In this document: positions 5,461 to 15,729 of the stretch, piece after piece
Layout: each line of letters opens with the position of its first letter
Numbering within the stretch: the first letter of the stretch is position 1
NCBI GenBank assembly: GCA_021815005.1
Contig: JAKAHL010000016.1
Location: forward strand, 1 to 15,729
Direction of reading: 5' to 3'
Length of the DNA: 15,729 nt
DNA from: Chloroflexota bacterium
GTDB taxonomy: Bacteria; Chloroflexota; Limnocylindria; Limnocylindrales; CSP1-4
Position numbers and translations under genes: made by a program
Notes under the pieces: model-generated
Seen by the model: only the letters and a program-made list of their open reading frames with translations
Database searches by the model: none
What the model was told of the DNA's origin: nothing

Positions 5461-6177
5461 ATGCGAACCGTCACGCGCCTCCCCCGCCTGACCGCCGCGC
5501 TGGCAGCGGCAGCCATCGCGGTTGCCGGCTGCGGCCCGACGGCACCATCGCCGGCGCCGACGCCCGGCCCGAGCGCCGCCGTGCTCTCGCCCTCCCCGTC
5601 GCCGAGTGCCGCTCCGTTGCCGTCCCCGTCGGCGGTGCCGACCGTCTCGCTGGCGCCCGCACCGTCGGCGACGGCCTCGCCGTCGGCGTCCGGCGACCCC
5701 GCGGTCGCGACGCGCGTGGTGGTGCGGGACCTGGGGATCGACCTCGCGGTCACCAAGTCGCCGCCGGCCAACGTCTACCCCTACTGCAACGTCGCCATGT
5801 ACCTCGGCCCGCCGCTGGGCCAGCCCGGTCAGGCGCGGGCCACCTACCTGTTCGCCCACGCGCGGGTGGGGATGTTCTACCCCATCTACGACCTGACGAT
5901 GCTCAAGCGGACGCCAGGCAAGATGGTCGGCATGCTGGTGGACGTCTACACCAGCGACGCCATGCTCCACGTCTACCGGATCACCAAGGTGCTGCCGCAC
6001 CAGGTCACGCTCGACGCGGCGATCGCCGCCCGCCATGACGAGCTCTGGCTCCAGACCTCCGAGGGGCCGCACGGCACACCCGGCAAGACGCAAGTGGTGG
6101 CGGAACCCGTGTCGACCGCAGCGACAGACGCCGCGGCGGCGAACCCGCCGGTGCACATCGTCCGGTGCGGGGCCTGA
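5461..6177 (+). CDS. Sortase-fold lipoprotein lacking the catalytic cysteine
   Basis: 238 aa. It has a lipoprotein signal ending in the lipobox VAGC (Cys24), a Ser/Pro/Ala-rich linker (25-80) and a domain resembling class E/F sortases (about 82-218). Family features are the FAHAR segment with the expected catalytic His133, and LWLQTS at 195-200, where sortases have TLxTC. Here Ser200 replaces the nucleophilic Cys, and the downstream basic residue is Lys209 instead of Arg. Ordinary transpeptidation is therefore doubtful. Two other cysteines occur: Cys109 in PYCNVAMY and Cys236, two residues before the end; both have counterparts in the next gene. The start is the ATG at 5461, which gives the lipoprotein signal at once and lies just downstream of a -10 box. 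The gene overlaps the next by 13 bases. The fold call is by motif and spacing; function is unknown. Confidence 0.75.
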   Translation: MRTVTRLPRLTAALAAAAIAVAGCGPTAPSPAPTPGPSAAVLSPSPSPSAAPLPSPSAVPTVSLAPAPSATASPSASGDPAVATRVVVRDLGIDLAVTKSPPANVYPYCNVAMYLGPPLGQPGQARATYLFAHARVGMFYPIYDLTMLKRTPGKMVGMLVDVYTSDAMLHVYRITKVLPHQVTLDAAIAARHDELWLQTSEGPHGTPGKTQVVAEPVSTAATDAAAANPPVHIVRCGA

Positions 6178-6905
6178 GTCAGGTGCACGCGGTCCTCGCG
6201 CTCGCCCGCGCGCTGTTCACGAGGCTGATCCCCGCGCTGATCGTGGCGCTGGGTGTGGTCCTCGTGACGGCGGGCCTCCTCTCGTACGCCGACCCCACCG
6301 CGGCGGGCGTCGTGGCCGCGCCGTCGGCGTCCGACACGAGCGGCGTGCCCGAGCCATCGATCGCGCTCGACCTTCCGTCAGCGGCGCCGGCTGGCAGCCC
6401 GGGCGGATCCGCCGGGCCCTCGCCCTCGAGCGGCCCGCCGGTCGCGACACGCATCGTCATCCCCGCCCTGCAGATCGACCTGCCGGTCGTGGCCGGGCCG
6501 TCGGGCTATCCGTACTGCGACGTGGCGATGTACCAGACCGCGGCGCCGTTCGGGCAGCCGGGCCAGGGCAAGCCGGTCTACATCTACGCCCATGCCCGCG
6601 ATGGGATGTTCGGGCCGATCTACAACCTCGTGATCGTGCAGGGGACCCCGAACAGACTGGTGTCCGACCTGGTGATGGTCTACACGAGCGACAACAAGCT
6701 GTACCAGTACGAGATCACCAACGTCTACCCGCACCAGCTGAACATGGACCGGGCAGCTGCGGCCACCACCGAGGAGCTCTGGCTGCAGACGAGCGAGGGG
6801 TACGGTATCCCGCCCAAGACCCAGGTCCTCGCGCTGCCGCTTTCGGTGGGGAACGCCGACCCGAAGGACGCTCACCCGGTCCCGCATCCTCGGGTCTGCT
6901 CGTAG
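6165..6905 (+). CDS. Membrane-anchored sortase-fold protein, paralogue of the preceding gene
   Basis: 246 aa. It has a short Arg-containing N-terminus, one transmembrane anchor (about 21-40), a Ser/Pro/Gly-rich linker (43-92) and a sortase-like domain (about 93-227). It is clearly a tandem paralogue of the gene upstream: PYC[ND]VAMY, GQPGQ, [FY]AHAR.GMF.PIY, VYTSD and ELWLQTSEG are shared. His143 is kept; Ser210 stands where the sortase Cys should be, and Lys218 replaces Arg. Cys118 and the penultimate Cys245 match Cys109 and Cys236 of the partner. This copy uses a membrane helix instead of a lipobox. The start is GTG 6165 (13-base overlap); GTG 6183 is possible and there is no clear ribosome binding site, so translation is probably coupled. 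No LPxTG-type substrate was seen in the window. Confidence 0.75.
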   Translation: MRGLSQVHAVLALARALFTRLIPALIVALGVVLVTAGLLSYADPTAAGVVAAPSASDTSGVPEPSIALDLPSAAPAGSPGGSAGPSPSSGPPVATRIVIPALQIDLPVVAGPSGYPYCDVAMYQTAAPFGQPGQGKPVYIYAHARDGMFGPIYNLVIVQGTPNRLVSDLVMVYTSDNKLYQYEITNVYPHQLNMDRAAAATTEELWLQTSEGYGIPPKTQVLALPLSVGNADPKDAHPVPHPRVCS

Positions 6906-10261: not shown

Positions 10262-10290
10262 TTGACACCCGACGCTCGCCCACCTAGGAT
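10262..10290 (+). promoter_or_regulatory. Sigma70 promoter of the arsR-inositol lipid operon
   Basis: A perfect TTGACA (10262-10267), a 17-base spacer and TAGGAT (10285-10290), predicting a transcript start near 10297. It is the only consensus -35/-10 pair noticed in this GC-rich window. It is immediately followed and partly overlapped by the tandem dyads at 10289-10320. Confidence 0.85.
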
Positions 10291-10320
10291 CAACGCTCGT
10301 TGATATCAACCGCGATTGAT
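10289..10320 (+). promoter_or_regulatory. Two tandem operator dyads, ATCAA-N6-TTGAT
   Basis: Two 16-bp inverted repeats lie directly end to end: ATCAA CGCTCG TTGAT (10289-10304) and ATCAA CCGCGA TTGAT (10305-10320). The first shares the last two bases of the -10 box and covers the predicted transcript start. The junction makes the perfect 12-bp palindrome GTTGATATCAAC (10299-10310). Size and symmetry suit a dimeric ArsR-type winged-helix repressor, and the arsR gene follows. Autoregulation is inferred. Confidence 0.75.
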
Positions 10321-10362: not shown

Positions 10363-10728
10363 GTGTCACCCTCCCCGGCTCGGATCCGGAGCACCATCGC
10401 CAACGTCGTCGACCAGCCCGACGACCTGCGCGAGCTGCGCCGCGTCTACAAGATCCTGGCGGACGTGAACCGCTTGCGCCTGCTGCGGCAGCTGGCCGAC
10501 GGGCCGGCCACCGTGACGGAGCTGGTCGACCGGGTCGGCCTCTCCCAGCCGCTCGTCTCGTGGCACCTGGCCAAGCTCCGCGAGGCCGGCCTCGTGCGGG
10601 CGCGCCGCGAGGGCCGCGTGACCCTGCATACCATCGTGCCGGAGGCGTTCGAGGCCCTCCGCGTCCGCGAGGCGCGGGCGCTGGGTCTCGCCACCGCCGA
10701 GACACCACCAGGGAGGCAGGAACCGTGA
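10363..10728 (+). CDS. ArsR-family winged-helix transcriptional regulator
   Basis: Small dimeric DNA-binding regulator, 121 aa from the GTG at 10363. The winged helix-turn-helix spans about 27-95: [21 protein letters not shown], then the recognition helix region [28 protein letters not shown] (51-78, given in part), then the [11 protein letters not shown] wing. It has no cysteine and only two histidines, and the CVC box and the usual Asp/His helix-5 metal site are missing. It therefore does not look like a metal or arsenic sensor. The start is uncertain: GTG 10363 has only a distant GAGG, and the frame is open to TTG 10300, which lies 9 bases after the -10 box. Its TGA overlaps the GTG of the next gene (GTGA), so it heads an inositol-lipid operon. 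Autoregulation through the upstream dyads is likely. Confidence 0.88.
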
Positions 10729-11378
10729 GCGGCTCGTTCGTCTCGCCCGAGCTCCGGGCGAGGATCCGGGGGCTGATGACCCCCATCGCGATCGGGCTCG
10801 GCCGGTTGGGCCTGTCCCCGAACGCGCTGACCGTCATCGGCTTCCTGGTCGCCTGTGTCGCGGCGATCGCGGCGGGAGTCGGCGACTGGCTGGTGGCCGG
10901 CCTCCTCGTGATCTTCGGCGGCGTGTTCGACCTGTTCGACGGGGCGCTCGCGCGCGCGACGAACCGCGTCAGCAAGGTCGGCGGCTTCATGGATTCGACC
11001 TTCGACCGCTGGGGCGAGGGCGTCGTGTACGTCGGCATCTCGGCCGGCGGCCTGGCGGCGGGCCTCAATCCGGTGGCGATCCTCTCGTCGGCGGCCATGG
11101 CCTCCGCGTTCATGGTCAGCTACACCCGCGCCAAAGCCGAGAGCCTGGGCTTCGCCCCCGGCACCGGCATGGCGAACGTGGGCCTCGCCCCGCGCGAGGT
11201 CCGCCTCGTGATCCTCACCGTCGGCCTCGTGTGGGCCGGCATCGCCGGCGTCGGCCCGTCGGGAACCGGCGACCTCGTCATCGAGGCGGCCCTCGGCCTG
11301 ATCGCCGTCCTCGCCACCATCACGACCATCCAGCGCATCGTCGCCACGATCCGCCAGGCAGCCGCCTCGGAGGGATAG
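10725..11378 (+). CDS. CDP-alcohol phosphatidyltransferase, probable phosphatidylinositol phosphate synthase
   Basis: Integral membrane enzyme, 217 aa, about six transmembrane helices. The complete catalytic signature D-x2-DG-x2-AR-x8-G-x3-D-x3-D is present: Asp69, Asp72-Gly73, Ala76-Arg77, Gly86, Asp90 and Asp94. The later [11 protein letters not shown] segment resembles the SYxxARAE region of prokaryotic phosphatidylinositol phosphate synthases. The family transfers the phosphatidyl group of CDP-diacylglycerol to an alcohol. The neighbouring inositol-1-phosphate synthase makes inositol-1-phosphate the likely acceptor, giving phosphatidylinositol phosphate. The start is GTG 10725, overlapping the arsR stop by 4 bases and preceded by GGGAGG (10711-10716). 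Phosphatidylglycerophosphate or archaetidyl-type activity is less likely given the operon. Confidence 0.88.
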
Positions 11379-11394
11379 CGGCGCGGGCGCGCCG
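11379..11394. other. Short GC hairpin between the transferase and ino1
   Basis: CGGCGCG (11379-11385) and CGCGCCG (11388-11394) can pair with a tight loop within the 41-base gap. No T-tract follows, so it is more likely a processing or attenuation feature than a terminator, or chance in GC-rich DNA. Confidence 0.3.
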
Positions 11395-11419
11395 AGCACC
11401 CCGAACACGGAGATCGAGC

Positions 11420-12613
11420 ATGACCCCTAGCGAGAGCACGCCCAACGCACCGCGCAAGAAGATCCGGCTGGCCGTCGTCGGCGTCGGCAACTGCGCCAGC
11501 TCCCTCATCCAGGGCCGCTACTACTACGAGCACGCCAAGGCCGAGGACTTCGTGCCGGGCCTGATGCACGTCCAGTTGGGCGACTACCACATCAGCGACA
11601 TCGAGTTCGTGGCCGCGTTCGACGTGGACGTGACCAAGGTCGGCAAGGACCTCTCCGAGGCCATCTACGCCGGCCAGAACAACACGTACCGGTTCATGGA
11701 CGTGCCGCACACCGGCGTGACCGTGGAGCGCGGGATGACCCACGACGGCCTGGGGAAGTACCTGTCCCAGGTCATCCAGCCGGCGCCCGGCCCCACCGCG
11801 GACATCATCGGCATCCTCAAGGACCGCCAGGTGGACGTCCTGGTCTCCTATCTCCCGGTCGGGAGCGAGGAGGCCACCAAGTGGTACGCGGAGCAGGCGC
11901 TCCAGGCCGGCGTCGCATTCGTCAATGCGATCCCGGTGTTCATCGGGCGTGAGCCGTACTGGCAGCGCCGCTTCGCCGCGGCCGGCCTCCCCCTCATCGG
12001 CGACGACATCAAGAGCCAGGTTGGCGCCACCATCACGCACCGCGTGATGACCCGGCTGTTCATGGACCGCGGCGTCCGCCTCGACCGCACCTACCAGCTC
12101 AACTTCGGTGGCAACACGGACTTCATGAACATGCTCGAGCGCGAGCGCCTGGAGTCCAAGAAGATCAGCAAGACCAATGCGGTCACCTCGATGCTCGACT
12201 ACGACATCGACCCCGAGAACATCCACGTCGGCCCGAGCGACTACGTGCCGTGGCTCAAGGACCGCAAGTACTGCCACATCGTCATGGAGGGCACGACGTT
12301 CGGCGACGTGCCGCTCAAGGCCGAGCTCAAGCTCGAGGTCTGGGACAGCCCCAACTCGGCCGGCGTCATCATCGACGCCGTCCGGTGCGCCAAGATCGGC
12401 CTCGATCGCGGCCTGCAGGGTACCCTTGTCGCTCCGTCGAGCTACTTCATGAAGAGCCCGCCGATCCAGATCCATGACGACGTCGCCCACCAGCGCGTCG
12501 AGGCCTTCATCCGCGGTGACGACAACGAGACGCTCGTCGGCACCGAGGAGGCGAAGGGGCCCTCGGCGACGCGGGCGACGGCCACGAGGGCGAAGGCAGC
12601 CGCGAGCGAGTGA
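11420..12613 (+). CDS. ino1: myo-Inositol-1-phosphate synthase
   Basis: NAD-dependent cytoplasmic enzyme converting glucose-6-phosphate to 1L-myo-inositol-1-phosphate, the first committed step of inositol synthesis. It is 397 aa, close to the short actinobacterial/archaeal type (about 360-400). The Rossmann start is [14 protein letters not shown] (19-32). Other core segments are [11 protein letters not shown] (194-204), [12 protein letters not shown] (228-239), [12 protein letters not shown] (246-257), [17 protein letters not shown] (306-322) and the final FMKSPP. The last 20 residues are an Ala/Thr/Arg tail. The start is ATG 11420 with GGAG (11409-11412) 7 bases upstream; the frame is open further up but overlaps the previous gene. 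Its TGA overlaps the next GTG (GTGA). It supplies the head group for the adjacent transferase. Confidence 0.96.
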
Positions 12614-13689
12614 CCGATACGAAGGACAAGAAGCTCGAGGCGCCGCACCGGCGCCTCGAGTCCACCCCGCCGCGCATCGTGGAGAAGGCCGCCGTCATCG
12701 CCTACCGGTTGATGGCCGCGGCCCTCGTCCACCTGCCGACGCGGCTGACGGTGCCCGTCATCGGCAGCGTCAATCAGATCTCGTATCTGGCCTGGCCCAT
12801 GAAGCGCCGCTTCGTGGACGCCAACTTCGGCCGCGTCATGGGGCTGCCGCCGAACCACCCGCGGGTGCGGCGGATGGCGCTGCGCGCGTACCGCGAGTAC
12901 GCGCACTACATGGTGGAGCTCATGCGGCTGCCGGCCCTCCCGGCCGCGGACGTCGCCAAGCTCGTCGAGGGCGACGGCATCGACCGGATCGCCGGGGCCT
13001 GGCTGGCGCACGGCAAGTCGATGATCGTGTGCGCAGGGCACGTGGGCAACAACGAGGCGGTCGCGGCCGGCGTGGCCTGGCGCGGTTTCCCCGCCAATGT
13101 CGTCGCCGACGATTCGGCGTTTCCCGAGATCTTCGAGATCCTGCGCCGGAACCGCGAGGGCTGGGGCGTCCACGTGGTGCCCTGGCGGAACCTGCGCGAG
13201 CTGTTCTCCATCCTGCGCAAGAACCAGATCCTGGCGCTGCTCGTGGACTGGGGCTATCGCGAGGACGGCATCCCCGTGAGGCTGTTCGGCGCATGGACGA
13301 CGCTCCCGGCCGGGCCTGCGGTGCTGGCCGCGAAGACGGGCGCCGCCATCGTGTTCATGGAAGTGCGCCGCACCCCGGACGGTCGGTTCGAGGTCAACGC
13401 GGACGACGCCTTCACCGTGCCCAGCTCGAACCCAGCGGACCTCCAGCGTGCCACGCAGCGGATCGCCGACGCCCTGGAGCGAACCATCGCCCGCGCGCCC
13501 GCCCAGTGGTACAGCTTCAAGCCCATCTGGCCGTCCACACACGAGGAGGAGCTCGCGCTCGAGCGGCGGGCGAGCGAGATGCTGGCGGGCAGGCCTGGCG
13601 TGGCGGCGCCCCCTGCGCCCCCTGCGCCGGCCGCGTCGCCCACGGGGCCGCTCGAGCCGCCCACGGGGCCCGTCGAGCCCCCCGCGTGA
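12610..13689 (+). CDS. LpxL/HtrB/PatA-family lysophospholipid acyltransferase (first copy)
   Basis: Membrane-associated acyltransferase, 359 aa. The catalytic Hx4(D/E) motif is GHVGNNE (His144, Glu149). The second family block is [18 protein letters not shown] (210-227), followed by [16 protein letters not shown] (233-248) and a C-terminal QWYSFKPIW (299-307). In monoderm inositol-lipid operons this family includes PatA, which acylates phosphatidylinositol mannosides; in diderms it makes lipid A. Position after ino1 favours the former. An extra Pro/Ala-rich tail (about 328-359) has a repeated GP[LV]EPP unit and is not part of the family domain. The start is GTG 12610, overlapping the ino1 stop (GTGA), and its own TGA overlaps the next GTG. 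The acyl acceptor is inferred from context only. Confidence 0.88.
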
Positions 13690-14753
13690 GCGCCGACGCC
13701 AGCCGGCCGGGGCCGGACAGGGCCGACCCGGGCGCGTCTCGCGGCTGGAGCTGGCGCGGCTCCGCCATCGTCGCGGGGACGCGGCTGCTGGGCCGCCTGC
13801 CTGAGGCGCCGCTGGTCGCCGCGGCGGAGTCCATCGGCGAGCTGTGGTACCGGACGGCCCCGGCGAAGGCCGCCCAGGCGCGCGCGAACCTGGGGCGCGT
13901 CTGCGAGGGACTCGCGGCCCAGGACCGGGGCTCGGCCCTGGTGCGGCGCGCCGCCACCGACCCCGAAGCGCTCGAGAGGATCGTCCGGCGCGCGTTCCGG
14001 CACGCCGCGCGCTACTACCTGGAGATGGCCCGGGCGGGCTCCGAGACGGCGGCGCAGACCCTCGCCCGGTTGGACATCGAGACGCCCGCCGAGGTGACCG
14101 AGGCCCTGCGGTCCGGCAGGCCGGTGATCCTGACGGGCATGCACTACGGATCGATCGAGGTCCCCGTGGTCGTGGTCAGCGACATGGTGGGCCACCCCGT
14201 CACCGCGCCCATGGAGATCGTCGGTGACCCCGCGATCGCGCGCTGGTTCGAGACGTCGCGGCGGCGCGTGGGGGTGAACGTGGTGGACATGCGGGACGCG
14301 AGGCACGCGCTGCTGGCGGCGATCCGGCGGGGCGAGTCGGTGGGCATGGTCTCTGATCGCGACCTGCTCCACAACGGCATCCCGGTGCCGTTCTTCGGCC
14401 ACCCGGCGCCGCTTGCCGCCGGTCCGGCGCTGCTCGCGGTGGAGACGGGGCTGCCCATCTACGTTTGCTCGGCGCGGCGGGCGGCGCACCTGCGGTACCG
14501 GGGTCGGCTCATCCGCCTGGAGGTGCCCAGCGAGGGGCGACTCCGAGAGCGGGTCACCCGGATCACGACGAGCATGGCGGCCGCCTTCGAGAGGCTGCTC
14601 GCGGACGGGCCGGAGCAGTGGTTCGGGGCGTTCCACCCCATCTGGCCCGACCTGGCCGTGAGCGCGGTGATGGGCGAGGACCACCGGGACCACCGGGACC
14701 ACCAGGACAACAAGGGCGCCACGGTGGCGCCGGCAAAGGACGGTGGCGCATGA
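13686..14753 (+). CDS. LpxL/HtrB/PatA-family lysophospholipid acyltransferase (second copy)
   Basis: 355 aa paralogue of the preceding enzyme. The catalytic motif is MHYGSIE (His153, Glu158); the second block is DRDLLHNGIPVPFFG (224-238), then PAPLAAGPALLAVETGLPI and the terminal EQWFGAFHPIWPDL (310-323). Sequence outside these blocks differs greatly from the first copy, so this is an old duplication or two distinct subfamilies, perhaps acylating different positions of the same lipid. The N-terminal 25 residues are Asp/Arg/Ser-rich. After the domain comes the His/Asp-rich tail EDHRDHRDHQDN, encoded by a 9-bp DNA repeat. The start is GTG 13686, overlapping the previous stop (GTGA); its stop overlaps the PHP gene start (ATGA). 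Confidence 0.88.
   Translation: MSADASRPGPDRADPGASRGWSWRGSAIVAGTRLLGRLPEAPLVAAAESIGELWYRTAPAKAAQARANLGRVCEGLAAQDRGSALVRRAATDPEALERIVRRAFRHAARYYLEMARAGSETAAQTLARLDIETPAEVTEALRSGRPVILTGMHYGSIEVPVVVVSDMVGHPVTAPMEIVGDPAIARWFETSRRRVGVNVVDMRDARHALLAAIRRGESVGMVSDRDLLHNGIPVPFFGHPAPLAAGPALLAVETGLPIYVCSARRAAHLRYRGRLIRLEVPSEGRLRERVTRITTSMAAAFERLLADGPEQWFGAFHPIWPDLAVSAVMGEDHRDHRDHQDNKGATVAPAKDGGA
14679..14714 (+). repeat. 9-bp in-frame tandem repeat encoding a His/Asp-rich tail
   Basis: GACCACCGG at 14679-14687 and 14688-14696, then GACCACCAG and GACAACAAG, encoding DHR-DHR-DHQ-DNK (residues 332-343 of the second acyltransferase). It lies beyond the catalytic domain. Confidence 0.9.
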
Positions 14754-15556
14754 CGGCCGAACCGATGGACCGGCTAGGCCGGGCCGACCTCCACGTCCAC
14801 ACCTGGGCGTCGGACGGGACGGATTCGGTGGTGGACGTGCTCGAGCACGTCGAGGCGGAGGGATTCCTGGACCTCGTGGCCATCACCGACCACGAGCGGA
14901 TCGACGCGGCGCTGGCGGGCCGGGCCTACGCCCGCGACCGCGGCCTGCGGGTGGCGGTCGTCGTGGGCGAGGAGATCACCACGCGCGGCGGCCACCTGCT
15001 CGGGCTGTTCCTGGAGCAGCGGGTTCCCACGTGGAAGAGCCTCGAGTGGTCCATCGAGGCGGTCCACGACCAGGGCGGGATCGCGATCCCCACCCATCCC
15101 TTCGTCCCGACCCACCTGTGCGCGCAGGGCTGGGTGCTGCGCAGGCTGCTCCTGGCTGACAACCCGGCCGTCCGCCCGGACACCATCGAGACGTTCAACC
15201 CCACCGCCCTGGGGAAGTGGGGCCATGCCCGCGCCCAGCGGTTCGCGCGCGAGCACGACCTGGCGTTCGTGGGCAACAGCGACGCGCACATCAAGTCGGC
15301 CGTCGCGTCGGCGTGGACCACCTTCCCGGGTCGGACCGCCGATGACTACCGTGCCGCGATCGCCGCCCGGACCACCCAGGACCACGGCACGTTCCACGGC
15401 AGCGTCGGCCAGGTCGGCGTGTACGGCCGCCAGCTGCGCAAGTACGCCCGGGACATCAGCCAGGAGGCGGCCGGACGGATCCGACGAGACGGCACCGGTC
15501 GCGATCTCGGATACCCCGGGGGGAAAGAGCGCCCGCCGCTGTACCGCGGCGAGTAG
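14750..15556 (+). CDS. PHP-domain metal-dependent phosphoesterase
   Basis: 268 aa soluble protein of the PHP (polymerase and histidinol phosphatase) superfamily, whose members hydrolyse phosphoesters with two or three metal ions. The whole ligand set is visible: HVH (His15, His17), TDH (Asp47, His48), Glu75 in VVGEEIT, His116 in IPTHPF, and DAH (Asp178, His180). It is therefore likely active. The substrate cannot be read from sequence; general annotation would be a TrpH-like nucleotide phosphatase. Its placement between inositol-lipid acyltransferases and a PimA-like enzyme makes a lipid or inositol phosphate plausible. The start is ATG 14750, overlapping the upstream stop (ATGA). A charged, glycine-rich tail follows residue 240. 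Confidence 0.88.
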   Translation: MTAEPMDRLGRADLHVHTWASDGTDSVVDVLEHVEAEGFLDLVAITDHERIDAALAGRAYARDRGLRVAVVVGEEITTRGGHLLGLFLEQRVPTWKSLEWSIEAVHDQGGIAIPTHPFVPTHLCAQGWVLRRLLLADNPAVRPDTIETFNPTALGKWGHARAQRFAREHDLAFVGNSDAHIKSAVASAWTTFPGRTADDYRAAIAARTTQDHGTFHGSVGQVGVYGRQLRKYARDISQEAAGRIRRDGTGRDLGYPGGKERPPLYRGE

Positions 15557-15559
15557 GCT
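15554..15559 (+). promoter_or_regulatory. Possible internal -10 element (TAGGCT) for the glycosyltransferase gene
   Basis: TAGGCT includes the TAG stop of the PHP gene and is 7 bases from the GTG at 15567, a leaderless-type spacing like that of three other genes here. It may add a second transcript to the operon. The overlapping GAGG is too close to the start to be a good ribosome binding site. Confidence 0.35.
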
Positions 15560-15566
15560 TCGAGGG

Positions 15567-15729
15567 GTGAAGATCGGACTGGTCTCGCCGTACGTCTACC
15601 CGCTGCCGGGGGGCGTCACCCAGCATGTTCGGTTCCTCTACGAGAACCTGCGCCTGCGCGGCCACGACGTCCGGATCATCACGTCGTCGCACGGGCTCCA
15701 GCGCTCGTCCGAGGGCGACGTGATCCGCT
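15567..15729 (+). CDS. GT4-family glycosyltransferase, PimA-like (3'-truncated by window edge)
   Basis: Only the first 54 residues are present: MKIGLVSPYVYPLPGGVTQH and so on, then the LRLRGHDVRII strand. The N-terminal Rossmann strand followed by P-x-PGGVxxHV is the mark of GT-B glycosyltransferases of family 4. The match in style to mycobacterial PimA (GDP-mannose to phosphatidylinositol) is good, and the operon of inositol-phosphate, phosphatidyl-transfer and acyl-transfer genes supports it. Sugar and acceptor specificity cannot be confirmed because the donor-binding C-terminal domain lies outside the window. The start is GTG 15567, 10 bases after the PHP stop. Confidence 0.8.
   Translation, partial: MKIGLVSPYVYPLPGGVTQHVRFLYENLRLRGHDVRIITSSHGLQRSSEGDVIR

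Follow-up and report, generated by a model that had tools for sequence, protein, structure and literature searches.

Contig JAKAHL010000016.1, whose 15,729 bases are the whole window analyzed here, carries seven genes on its plus strand from position 10363 to the window end. We read them as a self-regulated operon for phosphatidylinositol (PI) and a mannosylated, acylated derivative of it, in which a PHP-family protein serves as the phosphatase of phosphatidylinositol phosphate (PIP). Taken as a whole this reading is on balance probable, and its parts differ in strength: the operon is almost certainly of the PI type, its product is likely to resemble the phosphatidylinositol mannosides (PIMs), and we lean only slightly towards the PHP protein as the PIP phosphatase.

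The genes are, in order, arsR for an ArsR-family regulator (10363..10728, GTG start), the gene for a PIP-synthase-type CDP-alcohol phosphatidyltransferase of 217 aa (PIPS; 10725..11378, GTG start; PF01066, 52 bits), ino1 for an inositol-phosphate synthase of 397 aa (11420..12613, ATG start; PF01658, 125 bits), two PatA-type acyltransferase genes, AT1 (12610..13689, GTG start; PF03279, 104 bits) and AT2 (13686..14753, GTG start; PF03279, 106 bits), the PHP gene (14750..15556, ATG start; PF13263, 46 bits) and a pimA-type GT4 gene (15567..15729, GTG start). The last runs for 54 codons before the contig ends; as the window is the whole contig, it was cut by the assembly. Four-base stop/start overlaps join arsR to PIPS, ino1 to AT1, AT1 to AT2 and AT2 to PHP, whereas 41 bases separate PIPS from ino1 and 10 bases PHP from the GT4 gene. 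The first-pass annotation had described this gene content and these four overlaps, and both stand on direct reading, with the Pfam families in agreement.

In the proposed pathway, Ino1 would convert glucose-6-phosphate to inositol-phosphate, which the PIP synthase would join to CDP-diacylglycerol to form PIP; the PHP protein, as a cytosolic metal-dependent phosphatase, would then remove the ring phosphate to yield PI. The PimA-type GT4 would place mannose on PI, and AT1 and AT2 would acylate the product, one of them probably on the mannose in the manner of PatA and the other at a second hydroxyl group. Seated on two abutting ATMAA-N6-TTKAT palindromes over the -10 box, the ArsR-family protein would repress its own operon. 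We infer each of these enzymatic steps, mannose as the sugar and the acylated positions.

Homology of the enzymes and conservation of the gene order

The operon recalls the mycobacterial PIM pathway in having homologues of Ino1, PgsA1 (the PIP synthase), PimA and PatA, all four of them in one unit. In mycobacteria pgsA, patA and pimA adjoin and ino1 lies elsewhere; here, by contrast, ino1 is inside the operon, there are two PatA-type genes, and the set is enlarged by a PHP gene and by an ArsR-type regulator that has an operator.

The window Ino1 aligns with that of Mycobacterium tuberculosis (1gr0) at 490 bits. The transferase scores 142 bits on the model of archaetidylinositol-phosphate synthase (NF040950), 118.9 bits on that of PIP synthase (NF045883) and 23 bits on pgsA, so that the clustering with PgsA which the first-pass annotation had named as a danger to its assignment is not seen. 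It has the CDP-alcohol motif and, in the numbering of M. tuberculosis PgsA1 with equivalence taken from the alignment, Arg at R94 and Tyr at Y133 in 10/10 aligned sequences and Arg or Lys at R137 in the same ten. In PgsA1 itself R94 is reportedly critical and the R137K variant has about wild-type activity (PMC6506517). Judged by its sequence, the transferase appears to work like a PIP synthase though it is filed under neither NCBIfam model.

A role of Ino1 and the transferase in making a soluble inositol compound, either mycothiol or di-inositol phosphate, in place of a lipid is very improbable. The NCBIfam model matching the Ino1 is indeed named mycothiol_INO1, and a score of 55 bits is obtained on the model of the bifunctional di-inositol-phosphate enzyme; but CDP-OH_P_transf is the sole domain in a Pfam scan of the transferase, which therefore lacks the cytidylyltransferase part, a GT4 orthologue reaches only 86 bits on the mycothiol MshA model against a cut-off of 462, and the neighboring genes encode PatA-type acyltransferases.

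Full-length orthologues of the truncated GT4 gene are found elsewhere, and one of them (locus L034) scores 203 bits in an alignment to PimA that spans residues 1-363; among PDB chains other than PimA the best reaches 77. The PimA-like character that had been proposed from the 5' end of the gene is in this way confirmed at full length. A sugar other than mannose on the PI, or another acceptor for the GT4, is unlikely: the specificity of a GT4 is not safely readable from sequence and the four orthologues scanned reach the cut-off of no NCBIfam model, but PimA is the best PDB match, by 126 bits along 363 residues, and genes of the PIP-synthase and PatA types adjoin the GT4 gene. The GT4 gene comes next after PHP in 14/14 loci that could be read that far, the following called open reading frame (ORF) being on the opposite strand in 8 of them. 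In L034 this neighborhood holds a convergent 1,814-aa ORF on the strand opposite to pimA (L034:500-5944, plus strand), of which the C-terminal part matches protein-O-mannosyltransferase (PF02366, PF16192) and the N-terminal half, on inspection by eye, resembles a further membrane glycosyltransferase; long ORFs are present in L037, L041, L045, L046 and L055 as well. The product of this ORF could extend mannolipids or mannosylate proteins.

Against the PatA structures AT1 scores 64 bits and AT2 47 bits. In AT1, H144 and D167-D168 are conserved in 34/34 sequences, with Asp standing where the Glu partner of the PatA type is expected, and in AT2 a His and a Glu are conserved in 29/29; the corresponding pair of PatA is H126/E149. 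The presence of two such genes offers a possible lead for the second PIM acyltransferase. The enzyme making diacyl PIMs had not been identified as of 2022, and the authors concerned place it, speculatively, in the periplasm as an enzyme other than PatA (PMC9490103), which speaks against AT2 being that enzyme.

The curated models set a limit to these likenesses. The window Ino1 reaches 547.5 bits on TIGR03450, under the equivalog cut-off of 638; the transferase is below both of its equivalog cut-offs (180 bits for NF040950, 170 for NF045883); and on PRK07920, the model of the PIM acyltransferase PatA, AT1 (132.5 bits) and AT2 (121.8 bits) stay under the cut-off of 209. These shortfalls weigh against a plain assignment, and since the cut-offs of the tested models are missed, we regard the operon as a variant of the early mycobacterial PIM pathway and not as a plain member of it.

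The gene set is widely kept. We matched ino1 in 54/61 relatives, including 27/27 good genomes; phylum-wide, at E 0.001, the count is 363/399 genomes, with a few weak matches among them. Among 40 loci drawn from five families of the window's class, the full ordered set arsR-PIPS-ino1-AT-AT-PHP-PimA is present in 28, which indicates that the gene order is not due to chance. Ten of the other 12 are cut by contig ends (L036, L050, L053, L056, L062 and L068-L072), and in L042 the PHP gene is split over two frames in an otherwise complete set. In the last, L049, ino1 is by itself, and a different contig of that genome, G012, carries PIPS together with PHP (G012:C34, G012:C94); for the window's family this is the one real exception in the loci fetched.

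Outside the class, in 40 loci that were hand-picked from phylum-wide ino1 matches and are thus not a random draw, PimA is linked to ino1 in 19, in 11 of these as ino1-PimA-PIPS, and PHP occurs in 3. The titles of named loci include Chloroflexi, Dehalococcoidia, Thermogemmatispora, Ktedonobacter and Thermoflexus. Thermogemmatispora, which has PimA, shows the order arsR-AT-AT-PHP-PimA-PIPS, and the unit of Ktedonobacter racemifer is arsR-PHP-PIPS; in L140, L142 and L153 the order is ino1-PHP-PimA-PIPS with the acyltransferases missing. As a separate observation, several small-genome lines (L095, L097, L103, L105, L108, L111) have ino1-pimA-PIPS in a housekeeping neighborhood, between genes read as infB/truB and purA.

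With this operon PIM-type genes extend to a second phylum, a point relevant to the age of such glycolipids. PI as such is not new to Chloroflexota, as the polar-lipid description of Dictyobacter halimunensis lists it among the major polar lipids (PMC12453558). We found no PIM genes or mannosides reported for Chloroflexota in the open-access literature, with most subscription journals outside this search. Phosphoinositol lipids that are diol-based and carry acylated mannose have reportedly been described from Thermomicrobia; if so, lipids of this kind are no novelty for the phylum.

The PHP protein and its linkage to PIP synthase

Bacterial PI can arise by way of PIP. For M. tuberculosis a 2019 source described the phosphatase of that route as not yet identified (PMC6506517). 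In Bacteroides thetaiotaomicron the cluster BT_1522-BT_1526 resembles the present operon in uniting MIPS (ino1), PIP synthase and PIP phosphatase; the phosphatase there, BT_1525, the sole one that we found described, is of the PgpA family, whereas the candidate here is of the PHP family, and PimA or PatA are not named in the passages describing that cluster (PMC9246714). The operon thus offers a candidate PIP phosphatase, and as these environmental bacteria have named relatives (Ktedonobacter, Thermogemmatispora), it and the acyltransferase lead are both testable.

The window PHP protein (P0003) matches only PHP_C and PHP in Pfam and does not match the PgpA family domain found in BT_1525. Its residues H17, D22, H48, E75, H82, H116, D178 and H180, presumably the PHP metal-ligand pattern, are invariant in 13/13 sequences, and sequence and model together point to a PHP fold bearing that pattern. 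From the PHP phosphoesterases TM0559, PsfC and RNase AM it is set apart by an identity of 19-26% in alignments, by a modeled C-terminal helix at 218-240 and by its linkage to PIPS. The PHP_C domain occurs in 8/14 control genomes, which says nothing on function. Whether a basic C-terminal tail distinguishes the cluster PHPs was compared too, but since the alignment truncated the tails this comparison is not used.

The linkage was followed in two samples. The PHP alignment, searched against named genomes, gave a listing of 80 loci that is no census: at scores of at least 224, same-strand pathway genes lie within 5 kb in 38/40 (the exceptions being L164 and L157), and below 224 in 1/40 (L203, whose PHP is cut by a contig end). 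In 151 genomes drawn evenly from the phylum, PIPS and PHP were searched separately: a PHP match lies within 6 kb of PIPS in 43/51 cases when it scores 240 bits or more and in 0/56 when it is weaker. For the other 8 strong matches PIPS is not on the same contig, and one of these genomes, G173, is without any PIPS match.

A closer view is given by the Ktedonobacteria, sampled as the 29 genomes of family f19. PHP is found in 26/29 of these (E 1e-30 or better) and PimA in 9/29 (1e-60 or better). In 12 of the 20 PimA-less genomes an open PIPS frame stands beside PHP, preceded by arsR in 10; in G218 the PIPS copy beside PHP has three stops and another copy lies elsewhere; in G076, G158, G173 and G212 the PHP has no PIPS in 1.5 kb on either side; and G434, G437 and G439 (83-87% complete) have no PHP match. 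The linkage therefore follows PIPS, and not PimA or the acyltransferases, as that of a PIP phosphatase would. In genus g51 of this group PIPS beside PHP is either broken (G218:C1:3214686-3216307) or not adjoining (G212, G158, G076), with PIPS elsewhere, as if the copy beside PHP had been replaced by another.

Several observations bear the other way on this assignment. Both PHP cut-offs, 224 and 240 bits, were chosen after the scores were known, only the top first-look candidates (mostly 17 per genome) were scored in the 151 genomes, and as the profiles were built from cluster sequences the scores partly track kinship. The PHP-motif residue H15 is replaced by Gln in L051 and L052 (2/13). A single clade for all cluster PHPs was not obtained: a tree of 119 rows, with the class loci thinned to a third and short sequences as well as L042, L067, L208, L210 and L211 dropped, gave two groups, of 27 rows (100/100) and 54 rows (94/88). 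Five rows of the former are without PIPS in the short stretch examined (L213, L218, L227, L230 and L232, with a broken copy in L227), and the latter includes L164 and a six-member clade away from PIPS (L184, L197, L233-L236). The cluster label, which we assigned ourselves, needs 7 changes on this tree against 38.4 in shuffles.

Moreover, 97/147 genomes with PIPS have no strong PHP match (147 being those of 148 positive genomes among the matches listed), some of them with an otherwise like ino1-AT-AT-PimA-PIPS cluster, so that another phosphatase must act there. In 20 PIPS neighborhoods without strong PHP, we recognized no phosphatase among 13 neighbors read by eye, with no family search; displacement of PHP by another local phosphatase is thus not supported. 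In three Ktedonobacteria genomes (G199, G151, G433) the PHP at PIPS is joined by a second one of lower score (200-212 bits), which adjoins PimA and acyltransferases; an enzyme acting purely as a PIP phosphatase would not call for this second gene. These second PHPs form one clade with a PHP of Actinoplanes, which is itself beside a PatA-like gene. Genes of this second clade (L197:10004-11613; L233, L234, L235) adjoin PatA-like acyltransferase genes, often on the opposite strand, and in the three Ktedonobacteria loci PimA too.

These points leave a serious, if lesser, chance that the operon is indeed for PI and a PIM-like lipid and that its PHP protein is some other phosphoesterase, acting on inositol-phosphate or a nucleotide by-product or as a regulator, while a general enzyme elsewhere dephosphorylates PIP. 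The genomes with PIPS and without strong PHP and the second PHP alongside PimA favor it, as does the fact that PHP-fold relatives of known activity include nucleases such as RNase AM and EndoQ. On the other side, PHP remains beside PIPS at loci that lack PimA and both acyltransferases, and beside PIPS and PimA at loci that lack the acyltransferases; the linkage breaks off sharply at 240 bits; and an inositol-monophosphatase would drain the substrate of the PIP synthase. We accordingly retain the PHP protein as the candidate PIP phosphatase, with the reserve expressed at the outset.

The ArsR-family regulator and its candidate operator

Upstream of arsR, a -35 box (TTGACA, 10262..10267) stands 17 bases before a -10 box (TAGGAT, 10285..10290), both read directly on the plus strand. 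Inside the latter begins a pair of ATCAA-N6-TTGAT palindromes, the first (10289..10304) overlapping the -10 box and the second (10305..10320) directly abutting the first, with TTGATATCAA at the join. A like -35/-10 arrangement is seen by eye, without a count, upstream in relatives.

These two are the only sites of the pattern in the window, where 0.00 are expected. In the genus of the window the pattern occurs at a single place in each of 12/12 genomes, on the ino1 contig in 11 and on another contig in G008. Across the window and 34 class loci (family f2 excluded; 563,185 bases), all 22/22 sites fall within 90 bases upstream of arsR. The wider form ATMAA-N6-TTKAT precedes arsR in 25/28 sequences of the window's family, the window included, and is found at arsR in 17/17 Ktedonobacteria (two of them duplicates), 2/2 Thermogemmatispora and 6/14 others; the remaining 972,926 bases of the same loci, only a small part of them from Ktedonobacteria, have no site. 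As the pattern was widened after the Ktedonobacteria had been seen, its presence in them was not predicted independently. Pairs of loci with identical PHP are L145/L226, L155/L214 and L144/L207, two of which were traced to the same genomes. The site lies just past the inferred arsR start in L112, L146 and L147. Counting against the generality of the operator, the pattern is absent from families f2 (0/6), f3 (0/2), f4 (0/2) and f5 (0/1), 0/11 together.

The regulator matches PF01022 (60 bits) and NF033788 (80 bits), and shares with the ArsR/SmtB repressors the ArsR-type helix-turn-helix and palindromes over the promoter. It differs from them in its link to a lipid operon and in having no CxC thiolate site: the window protein has no cysteine, and 39/42 homologues have 0 or 1, so that it is no thiolate metal sensor. 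Autoregulation by ArsR at the palindromes is quite likely; we infer that the protein binds there and that it represses instead of activating. The ligand might, as a guess, be a lipid precursor such as inositol-phosphate. Here an ArsR-type regulator, for which a candidate operator is defined, is linked to the synthesis of membrane lipids.

Joining these strands, we put forward only tentatively, as a combination short of even probability, that the PHP protein founds a new, non-PgpA class of PIP phosphatases and supplies the missing second step of PI synthesis in part of the phylum, that AT2 is dedicated to acylating a further PIM hydroxyl, a type of step for which mycobacteria have no identified gene, and that both are under an ArsR-type repressor whose operator is common to Limnocylindria and Ktedonobacteria.

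Host and neighboring genes

The draft genome amounts to 2.05 Mb and is 72% complete. The organism firmly belongs to the phylum Chloroflexota, the lineage that had been suspected from the operon: the named loci sharing the gene order are Chloroflexi metagenome-assembled genomes. Its class is probably Limnocylindria, as a PHP homologue with 69% identity (P0103) is named Candidatus Limnocylindrales among the best 120 of 4,500 matches.

On the 5' side of the operon the window carries three nuo genes (L, M and N by reading), an opposite-strand redoxin gene, a tandem sortase-like pair, corA and an MFS transporter gene. The sortase-like genes (5461-6905) overlap in tandem after nuoN, and the Pfam sortase model matches only the second (33 bits); in many relatives whose loci were fetched, at least one of the two still separates nuo from the lipid operon.

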